This document shows, one piece after another, positions 27,849-38,577 of a stretch of 64,000 bases of DNA (the first letter of the stretch is position 1; every line of letters starts with the position of its first letter). The notes under the pieces are model-generated. The model was given only the letters and a program-made list of their open reading frames with translations, was not told the DNA's origin and made no database searches. Both the position numbers and the translations under genes were made by a program. The stretch is from the NCBI GenBank assembly GCA_947625775.1, contig CANQPM010000008.1:62001-126000 (forward strand). Direction: 5' to 3'. The stretch comes from an uncultured Lachnospiraceae bacterium (GTDB lineage: Bacteria > Bacillota > Clostridia > Lachnospirales > Lachnospiraceae).

Positions 27849-28271
27849 CTACTCAACCAAAGACAGGAAATCATTTGGTTTGATAGCTGGAATTTCTGAA
27901 TGTTCATAGTCCTTGGTGTTTATTGTAATAATGTAATCTGCCCTTGCCTCCTTGGCGCATTTGTCCTGAAGGCAATCCTCAAAATCTTTAAAACAATCCT
28001 TTTCAATAGCATCTAATATTTCTTGCTGAGATGCGGAAACTACAGAAAAAATTTTACATATATTTCTCAAATCTTCTCTGCGTTCTTTATCACTTTTCCT
28101 TCTAAGGACATACCAGAGCGTTGATAGCGTATGAAATGCAATGTAACCTGAACACTCGCCGTTGGCACACCTTTCTACAGTCTTAATTGAAGACTCCAAA
28201 TACTCATCATTTCTATTCGTAATGTAATTCAAAAGGACATTGGTATCAATTAAAACTGCCATATTTTTCAT
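27849..28271 (-). CDS. PIN-domain toxin (VapC-like ribonuclease)
   Basis: 140 residues, or 137 if translation starts at the second methionine (28262). The PIN fold starts with VLIDTNVLLNY (first catalytic aspartate D9). The later acidic site is CFKDFEDCLQ (near 101-110) and the end strand reads DYIITINTKDY. PIN toxins cut RNA. The gene overlaps the end of the antitoxin gene by 26 bases, a typical translationally coupled antitoxin-first order. Confidence 0.88.
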   Translation of the reverse strand: MKNMAVLIDTNVLLNYITNRNDEYLESSIKTVERCANGECSGYIAFHTLSTLWYVLRRKSDKERREDLRNICKIFSVVSASQQEILDAIEKDCFKDFEDCLQDKCAKEARADYIITINTKDYEHSEIPAIKPNDFLSLVE

Positions 28272-28542
28272 CTAACGCTATTCCCCTCTCTTTTTCATAA
28301 TCAATAGACTCAGAAAACCTTTTTCTTGATTCTTCAAGTCGCTTAAATGCCTCTAATTTTTCTGTATCAGTTTCCGTTTTTTTATGTGCGGGCGCTGAGA
28401 TAATGAACGGAATGCTTCTTTCCCTAAGTGCTGTTCTTGTAAATGTTTCGTAAAAGGTCTGTTTTGTCTGCCCCATAGCTGCAAGCATTTCGCTCAGTTC
28501 ATCATAAATAGAATCTTCTAATCTAATACTAATTATTTTCAT
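28246..28542 (-). CDS. RelB/DinJ-type ribbon-helix-helix antitoxin
   Basis: 98 residues. The N-terminal ribbon-helix-helix begins IISIRLEDSIYDELSEML and continues MGQTKQTFYETFTRTAL, typical of RelB/DinJ. The C-terminal half is charged and probably unfolded until bound to the toxin. Partner of the PIN gene that overlaps its 3' end. RelB/DinJ antitoxins more often pair with RelE/YafQ toxins, so the PIN partner is a mixed pairing, though such pairs are common in Clostridia. Expected to repress its own promoter. Confidence 0.85.
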   Translation of the reverse strand: MKIISIRLEDSIYDELSEMLAAMGQTKQTFYETFTRTALRERSIPFIISAPAHKKTETDTEKLEAFKRLEESRKRFSESIDYEKERGIALDEKYGSFN

Positions 28543-28660: not shown

Positions 28661-29689
28661 TTATATTTGCAGGCTTTCCGCATACTTGAATTGAATGATA
28701 TCCTTTTGCGCTGTATTTATATAAGCCTGCTCGTTATGCATGAAATTAATTATTTCATTTTTGCTCATTTTACCCAGCTTTTTAATGACAGCATCAAGAA
28801 TACTTATATCATCTTCCGAAAGTGCTGGAAACGTGTCTGCATTATTCAACGAAAAATGATATACGTTTGTTTCTCCCATATCTATTTCTTCACAGGGAAC
28901 ACCTCTCAAAGCAATTATAGAATCGTGTTCCACTGGCACTGCACCCATTGGCAAAGCCTGATATACTAAGCCAGTTATCGCATAACCTCTTGTTTTATAA
29001 GACAACGCGTCTGCATACCACAAAAGCTTCATAAGCTTTACTTTATAAAGATTCGTAACCTTTGCAGATGCCGCAAAATATCTAATAACATCAACCACTT
29101 TATCTAATGAAAGCTCTGTATTTCCATTAAACATTTTGTTTTTCTGAAATCTCGCATAGCCTGCCTCTATCGCCTTTCGCAGATAGCAATCTTTGTCTTC
29201 CTCATATAATGCAGCTGCCGCATTTAAATACTTCTGATATGCTGCCTGCGGCAAATTCCCCTGCGCCCCAGCCAGCAGCGTCAAAAACCACTCGGGATCT
29301 TGCGAGAGCTTTTTTAATATTGTATCGTGCGCTTTGTCCTGTACCTGATGTCCTTCATATCTTGTTATTGTTTTTTCGCCCCATCCAAGCAAAATGCATA
29401 AATCACTCTGGCTGATTCCATACTTTTTTCTGATACTGCCAATCTCGGAAGATGTCAAAAGTCCTGCTTTCTTTTTATATGCATCTTTAAGCCGTATATC
29501 GTTTTCCTGAAGCTGGCGTTCGTCCATGTATAGTTCTTCTGCCTTGTCGCAATATAAATATGAGGCTTCATATTTAACCTCCATATTTTTAAAGGTTGCC
29601 TTCTCATCAATGAGGACTGTCTTCACATCATGTTCTTCCATGCAGCATGTGCATAACTGCTTTTCTTCCTTAATAATCTTCATATTCAT
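28661..29689 (-). CDS. Panacea-domain (DUF4065/SocA-like) antitoxin with MqsA-type N-terminus
   Basis: 342 residues. Residues 1-60 resemble the YgiT/MqsA zinc finger but keep only C13, C16 and C47 (CTCC...LYC), so one ligand is missing. A helix-turn-helix follows (about 78-115: LLTSSEIGSIRKKYGISQSD, then TITRYEGHQ). The C-terminal 150 residues form the Panacea/SocA domain (KLMKLLWYADALSYKTRGYAITGLVYQALPMGAVP near 217-252). Panacea proteins neutralise many unrelated toxins, whose genes are next door. The gene just upstream, 12 bases away, is the obvious partner. The start is fixed by GGAGG overlapping the end of that gene. Confidence 0.88.
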   Translation of the reverse strand: MNMKIIKEEKQLCTCCMEEHDVKTVLIDEKATFKNMEVKYEASYLYCDKAEELYMDERQLQENDIRLKDAYKKKAGLLTSSEIGSIRKKYGISQSDLCILLGWGEKTITRYEGHQVQDKAHDTILKKLSQDPEWFLTLLAGAQGNLPQAAYQKYLNAAAALYEEDKDCYLRKAIEAGYARFQKNKMFNGNTELSLDKVVDVIRYFAASAKVTNLYKVKLMKLLWYADALSYKTRGYAITGLVYQALPMGAVPVEHDSIIALRGVPCEEIDMGETNVYHFSLNNADTFPALSEDDISILDAVIKKLGKMSKNEIINFMHNEQAYINTAQKDIIQFKYAESLQI

Positions 29690-29701
29690 GAAAGCACCTC
29701 C

Positions 29702-30079
29702 CTAAGTTTTTCTGTATGGGAACATTGACGGCATAAACGGTTTCTCTGCAAAATGGAAGGACATCACAAACGTTGTGGCATTGCCATACGTTCCTAAAAG
29801 CTCTACCCTTATTTTTATATATACATCGTCTTTTGCATTATATGTTCTGCCAAATTCACGCATCTCGCTTCTATTTGGAAAACGAATATCCTTAACCGTT
29901 CTCATGTAGTCTTCTGCCGACAGCGTAAGCAATTCCCTTTTTAGCGCATATAATGGATTTTCGTCTGGAAATAGAGTGTTTATTGTATATTGATTGGTAT
30001 ATTTTTCGTCTCTGCCGTTGTCAACAAGTCTTTTTGCCTGAAATTCTATTTTTGCCCCATTATTAAGAGCGTATTTCAA
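29702..30079 (-). CDS. putative toxin paired with the Panacea antitoxin, unrecognised family
   Basis: 125 residues from a TTG at 30079 (KYALNNGAKIEFQAKRLVD). The frame stays open and protein-like for 21 more codons upstream (LDRQNKARIESELEVKAYIQN) to 30142. There the strong AAGGAGA box and a TTG (30141) are in the +1 frame. The true start is therefore unclear, and a one-base slip at the start codon would explain it. The rest is rich in charged residues (DEKYTNQYTINTLFPDENP, IKIRVELLGTYGN, MSFHFAEKPF). No known toxin motif is recognised. Gene order (toxin, then antitoxin) and a self-contained promoter/palindrome support the toxin assignment, which remains inference. Confidence 0.6.
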   Translation of the reverse strand: MKYALNNGAKIEFQAKRLVDNGRDEKYTNQYTINTLFPDENPLYALKRELLTLSAEDYMRTVKDIRFPNRSEMREFGRTYNAKDDVYIKIRVELLGTYGNATTFVMSFHFAEKPFMPSMFPYRKT

Positions 30080-30160
30080 ATTTTGTATATATGCTTTGAC
30101 TTCTAATTCGCTTTCAATTCGTGCTTTATTTTGTCTGTCAAGCCAGCTTTCTCCTTTTTG

Positions 30161-30207
30161 GTATCAAATGATACTTTTATAATATGTCTTTTTTCATTTT
30201 TTGTCAA
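30161..30207 (-). promoter_or_regulatory. promoter and palindromic operator of the Panacea pair
   Basis: Minus-strand TTGACA (30202-30207), 17-base spacer, TATTAT (30179-30184). Just downstream is the perfect palindrome GTATCATTTGATAC (30161-30174), then an AAGGAG box (30151-30156). This is the layout expected for autorepression by the antitoxin HTH. Confidence 0.75.
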
Positions 30208-30217
30208 TATGCAATAA

Positions 30218-32398
30218 TTATTTTTTCAGTATTTCCACCCTGCTGCCAATCCTGCTGAGCAATTCGTTTGATATGCTGCCTGCATTGTCTGCGGCGGTTT
30301 GCGCAAGGATGCCATCGCCTATGATTGTCGCGGTAGTTCCTTCGGCGACGTCTGGTATGTCGGTTATGTCCACTGCTGTCTGGTCCATGCATATCCTGCC
30401 CGCTATGTACGCTCTTTTTCCGTTTATCATCACATAGCCTTTTCCGCATGAAAGGCTGCGCGGTATGCCGTCGGCGTAGCCTATGGGAAGTATTGCGATT
30501 TTTGTTTTTCGGCTTGCCGTGAAAGCCCTGCCGTAGCCTATGGTTTCGCCTTTTTCTATTGTTCTGATGAGTATTACCTTTGTTTTGAGGGAAAGTACAG
30601 GGCGCAGGTCGAGCGGTTTTCTCACCTTGTCGTCTGGGGAACTTAGCACGCCGTAGAGCGCTATCCCTACTCTTACGTAATTGCATTTAAGCTCAGGATA
30701 ATTTAATAATCCGTAACTGCTTTGAATGTGGATTTTGGGAATCGCAAGCCCTGACTGCTCTATGCGGTCGATTGCCTGTCTGAAATTGCTTATCTGCTTT
30801 TGAGTGAAAGCGATGTCCTCCGCATTAAGGCTGTCGGAAACGCACAAGTGCGAGTAAATTCCGTTTATATTTATGTGCTTCAATTTGAAGGTTCTTTCTA
30901 TTTCATCCGCTTCCCTGTAGTCTATGCCCAGCCTGTGCATGCCTGTGTCGATTTTTATGTGGGCATTTATGCTAATGCCTTGGCTGTCCAACAGACTTGC
31001 GTATTTGTAGCTTATCAGCGTCTGGGTGAGCTGATATCTGCGAAGCTCCTTTGCCCTTCTTACGTCTGTATAGCCAAGTATTAGAATTTCCCCGCGAATG
31101 CCATAGCGGCGGAGTTCTATTCCCTCGTCTATGGCAGCGACGGCGAAAGCTTTTACGCCGATTTTGTTGAGGCACACGGCGGTTTCGTACATTCCGTGAC
31201 CGTATGCCTGAGCTTTGACTACTGCCATAAGCTCGCATTTTTCGGGCATTGCGTTTTTCAGTATTTGGACATTGTGCTTTAGGTTGTCATGATTAATTTC
31301 AAGCCATGCGCGCTGTCCGCGTGCTGTGAGCATATTATCTGCAGGCGCTGCGGCGCTTTTTATTTTTCTGCGCTTTACTTTCTGGTATAATAGTGTAAAT
31401 ATCAGTGAAAATACAGCTGAAAAAACGCTCACTGCAAAATAATGTCCGACGCTGTTTTCAATGAATATTTCTTGAGTGCCTGTAAGCTTTGCCAAAAGCC
31501 GTACTGCTACTATCATCAGAGGGTGGATTATATATACGACAAGCGAAAATGTCCTGAGTGAAGCTTTTCTCTCCCCTCGCCAAAAGGTGAGCAGGCTGAA
31601 AAGATAATATGTGCATGGGATAAGGAAAATATACATGCTGTCGTGGCGCACAAGTCCTGCCCGATGCGCGATTATCCCTTCCGCGAGCATAAAAATAAAT
31701 GAAACTGCAAAACCCGCCACACATTTGAGGGCAGAAATACTGACACTTCTGTCAGAAATTATTGCCCCTACTGCAATAAAAACAGGGGCAAAAAATATCC
31801 CATTTCGCGTATAGTCGAACACTTCAAAAATATGGCGGTAAAAGCTTTCCGCAAAAGGGATTTTTTGTGATATGCCATAGAAGCTGTCACCGAAAATGCC
31901 GACTGTGTACAAAAACAGCGTGGCGGCGAATGTCCTTTTTATGCCAAATTTTTTTGTGAGAAACCACACTATTGTGGCTCCTATGATAACTGCAGGGAAA
32001 TACCAGAGATGATACATTGTGCCGTCAAAGACTATATCCTTTATTATGTTTGGCAAAAGATATTCCGTTGAAAAATAGCCGTTATATATGTTTATCGGTA
32101 TGTATATTATTATGGAAAAGGCGTAAATTGCAGACATTTTTTTGACGAGCTTTGCCAGTCTGCCGTTGTCCTTTGAGTACGAGGGTGAGAGGAAAAAGCC
32201 TGTAGTTGTAAAGAAAAACGGCACGGCGATACGCGCGATTATCCGTGTCGCTATCATATCAAATTGTTCGCTGTAGGTTGTGAATATTGAAGTATGTATC
32301 GCGACAACAAAGAATGCGGCAACGCATCTGAAATAATCTATGCCTGTGTATGCCTTGCCTGTGTATGCTGTGTCAGTGCATGCTTTATTATTGTCCAC
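30218..32398 (-). CDS. vanT: VanT-type membrane-bound serine/alanine racemase
   Basis: 726 residues. Residues 15-350 form an acyltransferase-3-like membrane domain with about ten helices (GIDYFRCVAAFFVVAIHTS at the first). After a linker (about 345-365), a fold-type III alanine racemase domain begins with RAWLEINHDNLKHNV. The PLP lysine lies in VVKAQAYGHG (near 394); IKIDTGMHRLGI and GRICMDQ complete the site. VanT supplies D-serine for D-Ala-D-Ser precursors in VanC, VanE and VanG clusters. It follows vanXY by 95 bases. The N-terminus has a short AYTGKAYTG repetition. The stop lies just before the promoter of the Panacea pair. Confidence 0.93.
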   Translation of the reverse strand: MDNNKACTDTAYTGKAYTGIDYFRCVAAFFVVAIHTSIFTTYSEQFDMIATRIIARIAVPFFFTTTGFFLSPSYSKDNGRLAKLVKKMSAIYAFSIIIYIPINIYNGYFSTEYLLPNIIKDIVFDGTMYHLWYFPAVIIGATIVWFLTKKFGIKRTFAATLFLYTVGIFGDSFYGISQKIPFAESFYRHIFEVFDYTRNGIFFAPVFIAVGAIISDRSVSISALKCVAGFAVSFIFMLAEGIIAHRAGLVRHDSMYIFLIPCTYYLFSLLTFWRGERKASLRTFSLVVYIIHPLMIVAVRLLAKLTGTQEIFIENSVGHYFAVSVFSAVFSLIFTLLYQKVKRRKIKSAAAPADNMLTARGQRAWLEINHDNLKHNVQILKNAMPEKCELMAVVKAQAYGHGMYETAVCLNKIGVKAFAVAAIDEGIELRRYGIRGEILILGYTDVRRAKELRRYQLTQTLISYKYASLLDSQGISINAHIKIDTGMHRLGIDYREADEIERTFKLKHININGIYSHLCVSDSLNAEDIAFTQKQISNFRQAIDRIEQSGLAIPKIHIQSSYGLLNYPELKCNYVRVGIALYGVLSSPDDKVRKPLDLRPVLSLKTKVILIRTIEKGETIGYGRAFTASRKTKIAILPIGYADGIPRSLSCGKGYVMINGKRAYIAGRICMDQTAVDITDIPDVAEGTTATIIGDGILAQTAADNAGSISNELLSRIGSRVEILKK

Positions 32399-32493
32399 CT
32401 TTGTCAGTCCTCCTTTTGTATTCGCAAGTTATTAAATAATTGCAAAACGTGTTCTAAACCGTCCAAATTTAGTCAAAACATATAAAAATTGCA

Positions 32494-33477
32494 TCAATGA
32501 GGCTGTCGCAATAAGGAGCAAGTTACGACAAATCCGTCAACGTTGTTTCCTGATATTTCGTAGGCGGACACTGCGTCGTCTGTATTGTAAGGAAGCATTA
32601 TTTTTGTGATGTCTGCCTTTTCCGCTTGGACATAAAATATTTCAAAATGTGTCTTGCCGTTGTCGTATTTCAAATGCTCACCATTAGCCGAAAACTGTTT
32701 CAGGTATTTGATATACTCCTCAAGCGCAAAATTATTTTCGCTTATTATCGCGGAATGCGGAAAGCCCACATATCTGAAATGCCACGGTTCAGGCGCGATT
32801 TTCGTAATGTTTTCTTTTCCTTTCCGATAGCGTTCGATAAAGCCGTACTGCGGCGCGGCGGCGCGAAATTTCTCACATATTCCTTCATATGGAAAATCAG
32901 GACATATAAAATCAATATTCTCCTTTTCAAGCCCAAGGTCAATCGCAAGACCTGTCTGATGCTCACTGTGATTTGGCAGCGCTACGAATTCAGCCGTAAA
33001 CTCCGCGCCGTTTTCCTTCAATGAGCTTTCGTATATGTCGGTCTGTTCCTTTTCACTGCGGTAGCCGCTTACAAGCGCAATGCTTTCTTTGTATATATTA
33101 GTCTGCTCCCTTCCATCGCAACAGCCGCTTACAAGCACAGTGTTTTTTTTCTGCATTTCTGTTTGTTCACTTTCACTAAAGACTGGCGAATAATACGCCA
33201 GAAAATATCCGCCTTCTTTTTGTATTTTTGTTCGTTCTCCTTTACTACTACAGCCGCTCGCAGACACACTGACATCTTTACATTCAGCGGCTTTAATGCT
33301 TCTAAGCGCCTGCCCCAGCATTTGCGCCGCCTCCGCCTGCAATAAAACCTGCGGATATTTTTCATTTACAGGTGTAAGGCTTGTGCTTATGCTTTCACCA
33401 CGCAGAGGGAAATCGCCATTTACCAAAATAAGTTTCCCCTCATAAATTTCTTTATTTTCAACTAAAATTCCCATCAT
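32494..33477 (-). CDS. vanXY: VanXY-type D,D-peptidase with an internally repeated SGYRS segment
   Basis: 327 residues; usual VanXY proteins are about 250. It trims D-Ala-D-Ala and pentapeptides so only D-Ala-D-Ser precursors remain. Zinc ligands H173 and D180 (SEHQTGLAIDLG) and E230/H233 (EPWHFRYVG) are present. The normal LVSGYRSEKEQTDIY segment (135-149) is preceded by three decayed copies at about 69-134 with a period of about 20 residues. A C-terminal extension of about 75 residues follows, and its last residues LLRQPH are encoded by sequence like a repeat end (GGCTGTCGCAATAAGGA, 32502-32518). The start overlaps the vanG stop by four bases. Confidence 0.88.
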   Translation of the reverse strand: MMGILVENKEIYEGKLILVNGDFPLRGESISTSLTPVNEKYPQVLLQAEAAQMLGQALRSIKAAECKDVSVSASGCSSKGERTKIQKEGGYFLAYYSPVFSESEQTEMQKKNTVLVSGCCDGREQTNIYKESIALVSGYRSEKEQTDIYESSLKENGAEFTAEFVALPNHSEHQTGLAIDLGLEKENIDFICPDFPYEGICEKFRAAAPQYGFIERYRKGKENITKIAPEPWHFRYVGFPHSAIISENNFALEEYIKYLKQFSANGEHLKYDNGKTHFEIFYVQAEKADITKIMLPYNTDDAVSAYEISGNNVDGFVVTCSLLRQPH

Positions 33478-34526
33478 ACATACAAGCCTATCAGCTTGTC
33501 CAGCACCTGCTCAAAGCACAAGCCTATTCCTTTCATCATATTCGGGTATCTGCTGTGCGAGGTAAAGCCAGGGATAGTGTTGACCTCGTTAAATACAATT
33601 TCGCCCGCTGGCGTCAGAAACATATCAACCCTTGCAAAGCCCGAACAGCCAAGTGTCCTGTAAATTATCTTCGCCGTTTCCTGTATTCGCCTTTCCGTCG
33701 CAGCGTCTATCCTTGCGGGCATATGGATTTTCGAGGTTTTTAGCGTATATTTTTCCGTGTAGTCAAAAAATCCGCTGGAAAGCTCTATCTCGTCAACTCT
33801 GCCTACCGTCAGACTGTCTTTCCCCAACACGGCGCAGCCTACCTCAAAGCCATCAATGTTCTCCTCTATTATGATACTCGTGTCATATTCAAGGGCAAAC
33901 TGTATGGCTGGAATAAGCCCTGTTTCCATCTGAACTTTAGTAATGCCAAATGATGAACCTGAACGTATCGGTTTTACAAAAAGTGGGTATTTCAGCTCAT
34001 TGGTAAGCACTGTGATATTTGGCAGGTCGCTCTTTGTCACTGCCACTGAATTGGGCGTGGGAATACCCGCCGCCCTGACAAGCCTGTGCGCCCTGTCTTT
34101 GTCCATACAGAGCGCCGACGAAAGCGTACCGCAGCCCACCACCTCTATTCCCGCAAGCTCAAACAGCCCCTGCACTGTGCCGTCCTCACCGTTTCTGCCA
34201 TGAAGCACTGGAAACGCTAAATCTACATGGTACACATTTGTGACATATCTGTCATTTTTGTCAAATTCAATTATCCCTCCCAGCCTTCTGCTCTGCGATA
34301 CTGCAACTGGGTGAATATTCTGTTCATCGGCAATCCATGAATTGTTTTCTATTTTTTCAAGGTTTCCGCTGTAGCGATGCCATTCGCCCTGTCGTGTTAT
34401 TCCGATTGGAAGAACGTCGTACCTGTCGCTGTTTAAAGCCTTTAATACTGCATACGCCGACTGCAGCGAAACCTCATACTCCGTCGAGTTGCCGCCAAAA
34501 ATTACTGCTATCTGTTTCTTTTTCAT
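33474..34526 (-). CDS. vanG: D-alanine--D-serine ligase, VanG type
   Basis: 350 residues, ATP-grasp ligase. The opening IAVIFGGNSTEYEVSLQSAYAV, PVLHGRNGEDGTVQGLFELAGI, LCMDKDRAH and VKPIRSGSSFGITKV match VanG closely. The specificity loop FDYTEKYTLKTSKIHMPAR is of the D-Ser (VanC/E/G) and not the D-Lac type. Metal-binding FNEVNTIPGFTSHSRYPNM is intact. It joins D-Ala to D-Ser, giving precursors with low vancomycin affinity. First gene of vanG-vanXY-vanT. Ribosome-binding site AAGGAG. Cryptic or weakly expressed VanG clusters are common in gut Clostridia, so the phenotype is uncertain. Confidence 0.94.
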   Translation of the reverse strand: MKKKQIAVIFGGNSTEYEVSLQSAYAVLKALNSDRYDVLPIGITRQGEWHRYSGNLEKIENNSWIADEQNIHPVAVSQSRRLGGIIEFDKNDRYVTNVYHVDLAFPVLHGRNGEDGTVQGLFELAGIEVVGCGTLSSALCMDKDRAHRLVRAAGIPTPNSVAVTKSDLPNITVLTNELKYPLFVKPIRSGSSFGITKVQMETGLIPAIQFALEYDTSIIIEENIDGFEVGCAVLGKDSLTVGRVDEIELSSGFFDYTEKYTLKTSKIHMPARIDAATERRIQETAKIIYRTLGCSGFARVDMFLTPAGEIVFNEVNTIPGFTSHSRYPNMMKGIGLCFEQVLDKLIGLYV

Positions 34527-34795: not shown

Positions 34796-35797
34796 ATGAA
34801 TTACATTGGCTCAAAATATTCATTGCTGGATTTTTTGGAAGCTACCATTGAAGAAGTGACAGGATACAGGTCTGGCGACAATTATGTGTTTGGCGATTTG
34901 TTCGCTGGGACAGGAATTGTCGGGCAGACATACAAGGCAAAGGGCTGCACGGTAATTGCAAATGATATTCAGTATTACAGCTACATATTAAATAAGCATT
35001 TTATAGAGAACATACCCGATTTGGACACAGGTTTACTGGAAAAGCTTAACGCCCTTTCCCCTGTCGAAGGGTTTATCTACAACAATTACTGCGAGGGCTC
35101 AGGCTCGGGCAGGAATTATTTTACCAATGAAAACGGAATGAAATGCGACGCCATACGGATTGAGCTCGAACGCCTTCATACCTCTGGAGAAATTGACAGC
35201 CACATTTACTACTACTATTTGGCGAGCCTTGTAAACTCCATAGATAAATACGCAAATACAGCCTCCGTTTATGGGGCTTTCCTTAAGCATATAAAAAAAT
35301 CAGCGCAAAAGGAATTTAAACTGGAGCTCCTTCCAGTTATTTCAGGAAATGTCGGCAAAGCCTACAATGAGGATATCAATGAGTTAGTCAAAAAGGTAAA
35401 CGGCGATGTATTATATCTTGATCCGCCTTACAATGCAAGACAGTATTGCTCCAATTATCACGTTCTTGAAACAATCGCAAGGTATGATAACCCCGAATTG
35501 ACAGGAGTTACAGGTCTGCGCAATTCGCCCGAGCAAAAAAGCCGATTCTGTTCAAAGCGCACGGTAGACACTGCATTTGAGGACTTAATAAGCAACGCCG
35601 ATTTTAAATACATCTTTTTAAGCTATAACAACGAGGGGCTTATGTCTCTCGATACAATCAAAAAAATTATGTCACGCTATGGCGAATACAGCTTTTTTAC
35701 AAAAGAATATAAACGCTTCAAGGCGGATAAAGACGAAAACCGCACTATCGCGGCGGACTCCACCACGGAATATCTTCACTGCCTTATTAAAAAATAG
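34796..35797 (+). CDS. D12-class DNA adenine methyltransferase
   Basis: 333 residues. The SAM-binding motif is DLFAGTGIVGQTYK (about 33-46) and the catalytic motif is YLDPPYNARQYCSNYH (about 206-221), as in D12-class (alpha) N6-adenine methyltransferases such as the NlaIII and FokI families. It opens with MNYIGSKYSLLDFL, typical for the group. The start follows AAGGAGGCGG. The second methyltransferase starts 11 bases downstream, so both form one plus-strand operon inserted in the van region. No restriction endonuclease gene is visible beside them. Confidence 0.9.
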   Translation: MNYIGSKYSLLDFLEATIEEVTGYRSGDNYVFGDLFAGTGIVGQTYKAKGCTVIANDIQYYSYILNKHFIENIPDLDTGLLEKLNALSPVEGFIYNNYCEGSGSGRNYFTNENGMKCDAIRIELERLHTSGEIDSHIYYYYLASLVNSIDKYANTASVYGAFLKHIKKSAQKEFKLELLPVISGNVGKAYNEDINELVKKVNGDVLYLDPPYNARQYCSNYHVLETIARYDNPELTGVTGLRNSPEQKSRFCSKRTVDTAFEDLISNADFKYIFLSYNNEGLMSLDTIKKIMSRYGEYSFFTKEYKRFKADKDENRTIAADSTTEYLHCLIKK

Positions 35798-35807
35798 GAG
35801 ATGTCAA

Positions 35808-36596
35808 ATGGCAAAATACAATGATTTAGATCCTAAAAAATGGAAGGAATATACTGACATTAATACCGATTCATTATGGATTATAGACAAACGCGACAAT
35901 TCAGGCGCACATACGGGGGACTATCATGGCAACTTCGTTCCGCAAATCCCGCATCAGCTTTTTTCAAGATATACCAAAAAAGGCGACTGGATTTTAGATC
36001 CTTTTATGGGGAGCGGGACATCATTAATCGAGGCGCAGCGAATGGGCAGAAATTCCATAGGAATTGAATTGCAGCAGACCGTTGCCTGTGAAGCCCGCGA
36101 GCGGATTGAAACTGAGCGCCGCGACGACTGCGCCGTGAAAGTGGTATCAGGGGACAGCCGAACCATTGATATGGACAAAATAATGAACGATATAGGAATA
36201 AAAAAATTACAATTTGTAATTATGCATCCGCCTTATTGGGACATAATTAAGTTTTCCGAAAGCAAGAATGATTTGTCAAACATGGAAAGCTTAGATGAAT
36301 TTCTGGGGGCGTTTGGCGAGGTGATTGATAACTCAACAAAGCGCCTTGAAAAGAACAGGTACTGCGCCTGCGTTATCGGCGACAAATATTCAAACAGCCA
36401 AGTCATTCCCCTTGGCTTTTACTGTATGAACAAATTTATCGAAAAAGGGTTTTTGTTAAAAGCCATTCTCGTTAAAAATTTCGGCGAGACAAAGGGAAAA
36501 TCCAACCAGCAAGGCATATGGCGCTATAGGGCTATCACAAACGATTTCTACATATTTAAGCATGAATATATTTTTGTATTTAAAAAGGTGAAGTAA
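35808..36596 (+). CDS. N4-cytosine/N6-adenine DNA methyltransferase, beta class
   Basis: 262 residues from MAKYNDLDPKKWKEY. The start is set by AGGAG seven bases upstream. Catalytic motif IV reads MHPPYWDIIKFS (near 141-152), with HPPY in place of the common DPPY/SPPY. Motif I comes after the target-recognition part of the N-terminal region (WILDPFMGSGTSLIEA near 62-77), the permuted order of N6_N4 Mtase proteins. Target site unknown. It shares an operon with the D12 enzyme; two methyltransferases together usually mark an asymmetric recognition site with one enzyme per strand. Confidence 0.88.
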   Translation: MAKYNDLDPKKWKEYTDINTDSLWIIDKRDNSGAHTGDYHGNFVPQIPHQLFSRYTKKGDWILDPFMGSGTSLIEAQRMGRNSIGIELQQTVACEARERIETERRDDCAVKVVSGDSRTIDMDKIMNDIGIKKLQFVIMHPPYWDIIKFSESKNDLSNMESLDEFLGAFGEVIDNSTKRLEKNRYCACVIGDKYSNSQVIPLGFYCMNKFIEKGFLLKAILVKNFGETKGKSNQQGIWRYRAITNDFYIFKHEYIFVFKKVK

Positions 36597-36683: not shown

Positions 36684-37844
36684 CTACATCAGCAGCGCCA
36701 CCTCAAACTCCACCATATCATCATAGCTTTTTGCCGTAATCGTGCCGTTATGCAACTCTACTATCTGCTTTGCAATGGCAAGCCCTAGTCCTGCACCGCC
36801 GCTTTGCGTGCCTCTTGACGCGTCAAGCCTGTAAAACTGCTCAAATATCCGTGAAAGCTTTTCCTGCGGTATAGTCCTTCCGTAATTTGTGAATTTTATG
36901 CTTACATTACTTTCCTTTTGGGAAACTGAAATGTATATAGCGCTGTCGCGTTCGCTGTAATTTACCGCATTGCGCAGAAGATTGTCAAACACGCGCTGCA
37001 GCTTGTCCACGTCACAGCTTATCATTATGCCGCGTCCCGCCACAAGACGGCATTTTAAGTTTTTCTCCGCAAGCATCGGCTCAAACTCGGACACCAGCTG
37101 CTCAAGCATTCGCGTCAAATTCACGTGACTGTATTCAAGCGTCAGGCTTGACAGATTGTATCGCGTTATCTCAAAAAATTCGTTTATCAGGTCTTCAAGC
37201 CGAAGCGCCTTTTCAAGCGAAATACCAAGATATTTTTCCCTAAGCTCCCCTGAAATCTGCTTTTCGTCTTTTAACAGTGTCAGATAACCGATTACCGACG
37301 TGAGCGGGGTTTTGAGGTCGTGCGCAAGATATACCACCAAATCATTTTTGCGCTGCTCCGCTATCTGCGCCGTGAGCTTTCTCTGCTCCAGCGTATGCTT
37401 TATCTGGTTGATTTTCTTTTCAGTGGCTGAAAGCTCCTGCGAAAGTATGATGTCGCCTGAATTTTCCTCTATCAGTGCATCTATGCCGCGGTTTATCTCG
37501 CCGAAATATTTTGTAAATCTGTTTAGATATATCCACATCATCACGGCAAATGCGCAAAGCATTGATGTCCATATTATAGGCTCCGCGTTATCTCTTATCA
37601 CATGCCTGTATATGACAAGCGCCGTGTCATAGTCATGCACCACAAAGCGGTCAAGAAATGTGACTACCCAGTTTGCCAGATGTCCGCTGAACACCAGATT
37701 ATACAGGCTTATTATGAATATACCTGCGCCAAACATCATAGCAATCGTAAGTATAAAAAGTTTTGTCTTTAACTGCCCGTAGCCGCTGTTTTTGTATTTG
37801 TCCGTTTTCCTGCGGCTCTTTATCTTTTCAATAAGCTTATTCAA
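36684..37844 (-). CDS. vanS: VanS-type sensor histidine kinase
   Basis: 386 residues. Two membrane helices (about 28-50 and 89-108) frame a short outside loop of about 38 residues, as in VanS of D-Ser clusters. The HisKA motif is VVYLAHDLKTPLTSVIGYL (H175). The ATP domain has LLRNAVNYS, FTNYGRTIP and GAGLGLAIAKQI. It should sense glycopeptide or cell-wall stress and phosphorylate VanR. The start overlaps the vanR stop by eight bases. It is separated from vanG by the divergent methyltransferase pair. Confidence 0.88.
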   Translation of the reverse strand: MNKLIEKIKSRRKTDKYKNSGYGQLKTKLFILTIAMMFGAGIFIISLYNLVFSGHLANWVVTFLDRFVVHDYDTALVIYRHVIRDNAEPIIWTSMLCAFAVMMWIYLNRFTKYFGEINRGIDALIEENSGDIILSQELSATEKKINQIKHTLEQRKLTAQIAEQRKNDLVVYLAHDLKTPLTSVIGYLTLLKDEKQISGELREKYLGISLEKALRLEDLINEFFEITRYNLSSLTLEYSHVNLTRMLEQLVSEFEPMLAEKNLKCRLVAGRGIMISCDVDKLQRVFDNLLRNAVNYSERDSAIYISVSQKESNVSIKFTNYGRTIPQEKLSRIFEQFYRLDASRGTQSGGAGLGLAIAKQIVELHNGTITAKSYDDMVEFEVALLM

Positions 37845-38577
37845 TTTTGTACCCCACTCCCCACACTGTTTTTATGAATTTGGGCTTGCGCGGAGGCTCG
37901 CCGAGCTTTTCGCGAAGCCTGCCTATATGCGCCATTACCGTATTGTTGCTGTCAATGAATTTTTCGCCCCAGACGTTTTCAAACAGCTCCTCCGATGAAA
38001 TAACGCGCCCCCTGTTCTCGCACAGATACCATAGGATTGAAAATTCTATCGGCGTGAGCGCTATTTCTTTTCCGTACAGCGTGCATTGGTGGGTGCTTTT
38101 GTTTATTATAAGCCTGTTTATGTCGTATTCCGTTTCCCGCATTGTGCCGTCTGCCTGCGCCTTGCCGTTATTTATATCCGATATGCCGCCCACGCCTGCC
38201 GCGCTGTTATACCGAGTATAGCGGCGCAGCTGTGTTTTGACGCGCGCCGTTACTTCAAGCGGGTTAAACGGCTTTGTTATGTAGTCGTCCGCGCCGATTG
38301 TCAGCCCCATTATCTTATCCGTGTCCTCTGACTTTGCCGTGAGCATTATCACGGGGTAAAAATGCTTTTCCCTGATTTTCTGCAGAAGCGTAAAGCCGTC
38401 TACGTCGGGAAGCATTATGTCAAGTATCGCAAGGTCGGGGCTTTGCGCGCTGATATACGCCAGCGCGTCAGCGCCGTTGTAAAACTTATGCACTGTGTAG
38501 CCGTCATTTATCAGGTACAGCTCTATCAGGTCGGCTATTTCCTTTTCGTCGTCTACTATCATAATGTTGGCTGCCAT
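37837..38577 (-). CDS. vanR: VanR-type response regulator
   Basis: 246 residues, OmpR/PhoB class. The receiver has IMIVDDEKEIADLIELYL at the start, phospho-acceptor D53 (ILDIMLPDVDG), T in MLTAK and K in ITKPF. The winged helix covers about 145-246 (ALTPIEFSILWYLCENRGRV, SSEELFENVWGEKF). The receiver wording is close to VanR. A linker of about 25 residues between domains is longer than usual. It is probably the activator of vanG-XY-T and perhaps of its own promoter. Confidence 0.88.
   Translation of the reverse strand: MAANIMIVDDEKEIADLIELYLINDGYTVHKFYNGADALAYISAQSPDLAILDIMLPDVDGFTLLQKIREKHFYPVIMLTAKSEDTDKIMGLTIGADDYITKPFNPLEVTARVKTQLRRYTRYNSAAGVGGISDINNGKAQADGTMRETEYDINRLIINKSTHQCTLYGKEIALTPIEFSILWYLCENRGRVISSEELFENVWGEKFIDSNNTVMAHIGRLREKLGEPPRKPKFIKTVWGVGYKIE

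Follow-up and report, generated by a model that had tools for sequence, protein, structure and literature searches.

A predicted MqsR:PanA-type toxin–antitoxin operon with a divergent MqsR-like toxin in an uncultured Lachnospiraceae bacterium

In the genome of an uncultured Lachnospiraceae bacterium (GenBank assembly GCA_947625775.1), the stop codon of a small open reading frame (ORF) lies 12 bases (29690–29701) upstream of the ATG of a gene encoding a Panacea domain, and the question raised by this locus is whether the small protein represents a new family of toxins, as an initial annotation had proposed. We analyzed a 64,000-nucleotide stretch containing both genes (contig CANQPM010000008.1, positions 62,001–126,000; hereafter the window, in whose coordinates all positions are given). 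The results indicate, with high confidence, that the two genes form a type II toxin–antitoxin (TA) operon of the MqsR:PanA kind, whose function is predicted from sequence and structural models. The toxin is a divergent relative of MqsR, with predicted toxicity and RNase activity, and the proposal of a new family was not borne out. The features of the locus are summarized in Table 1.

Table 1. Features of the TA locus in the window
Feature	Position	Strand	Remarks
Promoter TTGACA-17-TATTAT	30179..30207	-	11/12 consensus positions; TTGACA from 30207
Palindromic candidate operator GTATCATTTGATAC	30161..30174	.	perfect 14-bp palindrome directly behind the -10 box
Shine-Dalgarno AGGAG	30151..30155	-	from the sequence; relatives have similar sites at the equivalent place
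TTG at the relatives' start position	30139..30141	-	not in the frame of the toxin body
MqsR-like toxin body, open frame	29702..30163	-	stop codon 29702–29704; conserved part from about 30121
PanA antitoxin, 342 aa (MqsA-type zinc domain, helix-turn-helix, Panacea)	28661..29689	-	TIGR03830, PF13274
MqsA-like zinc-binding and helix-turn-helix region, PanA residues 13–138	29276..29653	-	TIGR03830, 97.2 bits (cut-off 61.8)
Panacea domain, PanA residues 219–323	28721..29035	-	PF13274, 82.7 bits (cut-off 25.7)

When the toxin family was compared with MqsR profile to profile (hhalign), the match had an E value of 1.1e-14 and a score of 87, as against ≤ 22 in 200 shuffles. The predicted structure of the toxin matched the MqsR fold, above the next chain, and its structural scores to other RelE/BECR-like RNase toxins were much lower than to MqsR. 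The confident match was thus to a toxin and not to a non-toxin family. Furthermore, the antitoxin appears to be of the MqsA type (zinc domain plus helix-turn-helix, HTH), which the initial annotation had overlooked, and this architecture points to MqsR as the partner. A genuinely new toxin family that merely adjoins a Panacea antitoxin would explain the lack of matches in the curated hidden Markov model (HMM) libraries, but it is hardly credible beside profile and structural matches to MqsR that lie far above the shuffles and the next chain, and beside an MqsA-type partner. The description “no recognised family” therefore holds for single-sequence HMM scans and fails under profile–profile and structural comparison. 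One candidate new toxin family is thereby removed, and some of the unannotated toxins next to Panacea genes would be MqsR relatives so divergent that the present Pfam model fails to detect them.

Several results weigh against the MqsR assignment. The 125-residue protein had no match in Pfam, NCBIfam, or PHROG at E ≤ 1 (PADLOC gave one match of 12 bits, E 0.031), and the Pfam model MqsR_toxin (PF15723) was absent from the matches of all 22 toxin family members at this threshold. Because of this absence, we class the toxin as a divergent relative of MqsR and not as a member of the curated Pfam family; the bridge sequence L039 passes the model. When only seven proteobacterial MqsRs were used, the comparison was weak (P 17.6, E 0.0014, score 25.1, with a maximum of 18.6 in 100 shuffles), and profile A4 against Escherichia coli MqsR alone gave P 1.7. 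A first, poorer model of the toxin (predicted local distance difference test, pLDDT, 64.7) had no MqsR match, and the better model was built from an alignment holding one MqsR-like row (L058). At the active site, E. coli Lys56 is replaced in the family rows (Arg in 11, Gln in 13, and Glu in 8 of 32), and E. coli Tyr61, Gln68, Arg72, and Lys98 are likewise not conserved. Finally, the window copy has no standard in-frame start codon, so the intact toxin frame of a type II TA operon was not found in it.

We then compared the active-site residues. E. coli MqsR requires both Lys56 and Tyr81, and Lys96 is named among the charged residues adjacent to this catalytic pair (PMC9636575). Tyr108 of the window toxin (numbering of the 146-residue form) corresponds to E. 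coli Tyr81, and His130 occupies the place of E. coli Lys96. The places of Tyr81 and Lys83 did not vary among the 32 family rows or the 15 MqsR rows (11 from the same phylum, 3 bridges, and E. coli), and Ser-Phe-His was likewise invariant across the family rows. All 32 of these rows had His at the Lys96 place, as did 14 of the 15 MqsR rows (all but E. coli). Lys was found at the Lys56 place in only 4 of the 15, so Lys56 does not define the wider MqsR family; the seven proteobacterial rows, E. coli included, all kept Lys56, Gln68, Tyr81, and Lys96. The pair Lys56 and Lys96 of E. coli MqsR thus contrasts with Arg, Gln, or Glu together with His in the window toxin family. From this pattern we tentatively suggest that the Panacea-linked MqsRs of this phylum, the toxin family included, might form a catalytic branch with Tyr/His instead of Tyr/Lys56, a possibility we hold with some doubt. 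If true, the histidine-free “noncanonical” RNase of E. coli MqsR would be the specialization of one branch and not the rule, and the sequence contrast makes this unusual chemistry testable. Since Lys56 and Gln68, invariant in the proteobacterial rows, are replaced or missing, the MqsR-fold protein might also have ceased to cut RNA and serve only as a co-regulator of PanA. We consider this very unlikely, given the invariance of Tyr81, Lys83, and Ser-Phe-His, the broken toxin frames of some relatives, as if the toxin were costly, and the case of L. rossiae MqsR:PanA, which a figure legend shows among the validated pairs (PMC10440598).

The length of the toxin was also reconsidered. The initial annotation had given 125, or perhaps 146, residues, and the 125-residue ORF (29702–30079, TTG start) is present as described. 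The frame of the body is open up to 30163 and contains no ATG, GTG, or TTG before 30079, so the 146-residue form has no standard start codon. In the relatives, the start (mostly TTG; ATG in L019, L020, L021, and L024; GTG in L028) lies directly behind the Shine-Dalgarno sequence, about 20 residues before the TTG at 30079, and the frame continues into the body, whereas the frame of the corresponding TTG in the window (30141–30139) hits a stop after 12 codons. Relative to the predicted model, the 125-residue form lacks one strand and the greater part of the first helix (residues 5–8 and 12–27). We conclude that 125 residues is not the natural length of the protein, and that either the frame of the window copy is broken at its 5′ end or the assembly is in error there. 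Intact toxin copies exist in relatives. The toxin of the window may be silent, with its antitoxin intact. In one reading, the unit would have decayed, with the 5′ frame break silencing the toxin and the antitoxin persisting alone, in which case the lone PanA would possibly protect against incoming MqsR:PanA elements. The out-of-frame conserved TTG and the lack of any other standard start before 30079 favor such decay, as do the broken toxin genes in 3 of 28 relatives (an early stop in L025 and internal losses in L027 and L028). Apart from the break, however, toxin body and operator are conserved, which would make it either recent or an artifact of assembly. We regard decay of this copy as quite possible, although we lean slightly against it, and it is compatible with an operon of the MqsR:PanA kind.

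The linkage of the two genes was examined in related loci. In genome_contigs, 28 relatives of the toxin were found; an MqsA-HTH gene lay directly downstream in all 28, and Panacea was detected in 26, so the two-gene linkage is conserved and the proposed constant pairing with a Panacea antitoxin was upheld. The two loci with no Panacea match were L008, which ends at a contig edge, and L028. In viral contigs, both antitoxin parts were downstream of the toxin in 6 of 6 loci. The toxin was found in 11 of 391 genomes of the class and in 2 of 38 genomes of the genus, the window genome being included in each count. Of the 13 match places in the class outside the window genome, 12 had MqsA-HTH and 10 had Panacea in the fetched flank; there, L037 and L038 had no Panacea match, and neither part was matched in L042, which is one half of a broken gene copy. 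Among 26 upstream regions (25 loci and the window), only those of L010 and L013 were related, and seven proteins encoded near the pair in the window had no match in 29 loci whose flanks extended ≤ 4 kb. These results indicate that the two genes travel together and are sporadically distributed. All of these counts refer to sequences and not to independent events, as near or exact duplicates are present (L016/L033, L012/L044, and L052/L053): L033 and L043 both match a single gene, the protein of which is identical in sequence to that of L016, and the toxin of L044, from the same genus as the window, reads the same as L012. Alignment A1 leaves out L006, L011, L013, and L021 as not needed and the broken L025, L027, and L028; the row of L003 is without its first codons. 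Alignment A7 consists of 12 of the 28 genome_contigs loci, seven viral loci, and the window.

Pairs of this kind have been published and tested. Kurata et al. (2022; PMC8832971) reported 90 MqsR-like proteins among 1,268 Panacea-linked toxins, of which 938 had no domain hit, and Ernits et al. (2023; PMC10440598) dissected an MqsR:PanA pair. The window toxin family may already be among the published unannotated clusters. The window system is a divergent variant of this known kind. As in the pairs of NetFlax node D2, an MqsR-fold toxin adjoins an antitoxin with a zinc domain, an HTH, and a C-terminal Panacea domain; unlike them, the window branch is missed by Pfam MqsR_toxin, its toxin carries about ten additional residues around positions 39–49, and the zinc domain of its PanA lacks the fourth cysteine. 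The system shares with E. coli MqsRA (3hi2; PMC2791442, PMC9636575) the toxin gene in first place, the fold, Tyr81, Lys83, and a zinc-HTH type of antitoxin, whereas the Panacea domain is absent from E. coli MqsA.

The antitoxin gene, which lies at the distance from the small ORF given in the initial annotation, is the sole Panacea match in the genome; Pfam MqsA_antitoxin scored 26 bits on PanA, under its cut-off of 30. Three of the zinc cysteines were kept in 56 of 56 PanA rows, and the fourth was absent from the window row, where Cys40 of the E. coli MqsA set (Cys3, Cys6, Cys37, and Cys40) has no counterpart. His20, present in 47 of 56 rows, may take the place of the missing cysteine. In the HTH region, Arg110 and Tyr111 were invariant in all 56 rows. 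For a published pair of this kind, MqsR was reported to be neutralized by the PanA zinc domain on its own but not by Panacea on its own, and the authors favor Panacea as a sensor (PMC10440598).

Two loci of the same phylum carry other antitoxins beside MqsR-like genes. In L069 (1797–2381, +), the gene has a 195-residue MqsA-HTH antitoxin frame with no Panacea match, so Panacea is seemingly not obligatory in the MqsR pairs of this phylum. In L073 (229–1447, −), from one genome, the MqsR-adjacent MqsA-HTH antitoxin is fused not to Panacea but to a nucleotidyltransferase (MNT-like) and is followed by a HEPN gene; the fused antitoxin perhaps serves two toxins. Among 17 genomes of its class, this fusion had a whole-length match only in its own genome, and the longest other joint match (residues 75–271, 26%, in G811) was full of stops.

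The promoter and the perfect palindrome noted initially were both found, the former on the minus strand. Since promoter-like sites are not rare (16 in the scan, with 9.4 expected), the stronger argument comes from conservation among the relatives: the pattern TTGAC...TA...T lay upstream of the toxin in 25 of the 27 genome_contigs loci with upstream sequence. GTATCATTTGATAC occurs once in the window, and across the 3.75-Mb genome GTATCANNTGATAC is confined to a single site, at the TA locus. Moreover, all 27 genome_contigs loci with sufficient upstream sequence had GTATCANNTGATAC 5′ of the toxin, mostly directly behind the -10 box; L020, in which the upstream sequence is cut off, is outside this count. 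In 19 further loci, the exact GTATCANNTGATAC was present in 10 (upstream in nine of them and, in L037, at +17 relative to the projected start) and was not found in nine (L038–L042, L052, L053, L055, and L065). Some of these nine have a near copy by eye (e.g., GCATCAATTGATAC in L041), and L065 carries GTGTCAAATGACAC, a symmetrical double change, one per arm, that keeps the palindrome symmetry. In one branch (L034, L035, L036, L051, and L054), the same palindrome lies upstream of the -35 box and not behind the -10 box, a shift of the candidate operator with its sequence unchanged. The conserved palindrome plausibly fits the HTH of PanA as a predicted autoregulatory operator, in line with the autorepression that the initial annotation had proposed, and its single site in the genome makes it a sharp target for binding tests.

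A possible mode of action combines these observations. An intact toxin would cut mRNA with an active site around Tyr108, probably assisted by the invariant His130, a role we propose since the catalytic Lys56 is not conserved. PanA would neutralize the toxin through its zinc domain, a dimer of its HTH would bind GTATCANNTGATAC beside the -10 box and repress the operon, and Panacea may sense an activating cue.

Downstream of PanA lies a second TA-like pair (27849–28542, −), in which a gene resembling RelB or ribbon-helix-helix proteins, with weak matches below the cut-offs, overlaps a PIN-domain gene (PF13470, 61.9 bits, cut-off 27). Directly upstream of the TA promoter is a VanG-type cluster (30218–34526 and 36684–38577, −), whose vanT-like gene stops (30218) ten bases before the promoter on the minus strand. 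The cluster encodes a D-Ala-D-Ser ligase VanG (552.9 bits, cut-off 495), a VanXY-like protein (274.1 bits, below the cut-off of 500), and a VanT-like serine racemase (560.3 bits for its catalytic part, cut-off 460), together with a histidine kinase and a response regulator. Between its kinase and ligase genes lie two DNA methyltransferase genes (MethyltransfD12 and N6_N4_Mtase; 34796–36596, +).
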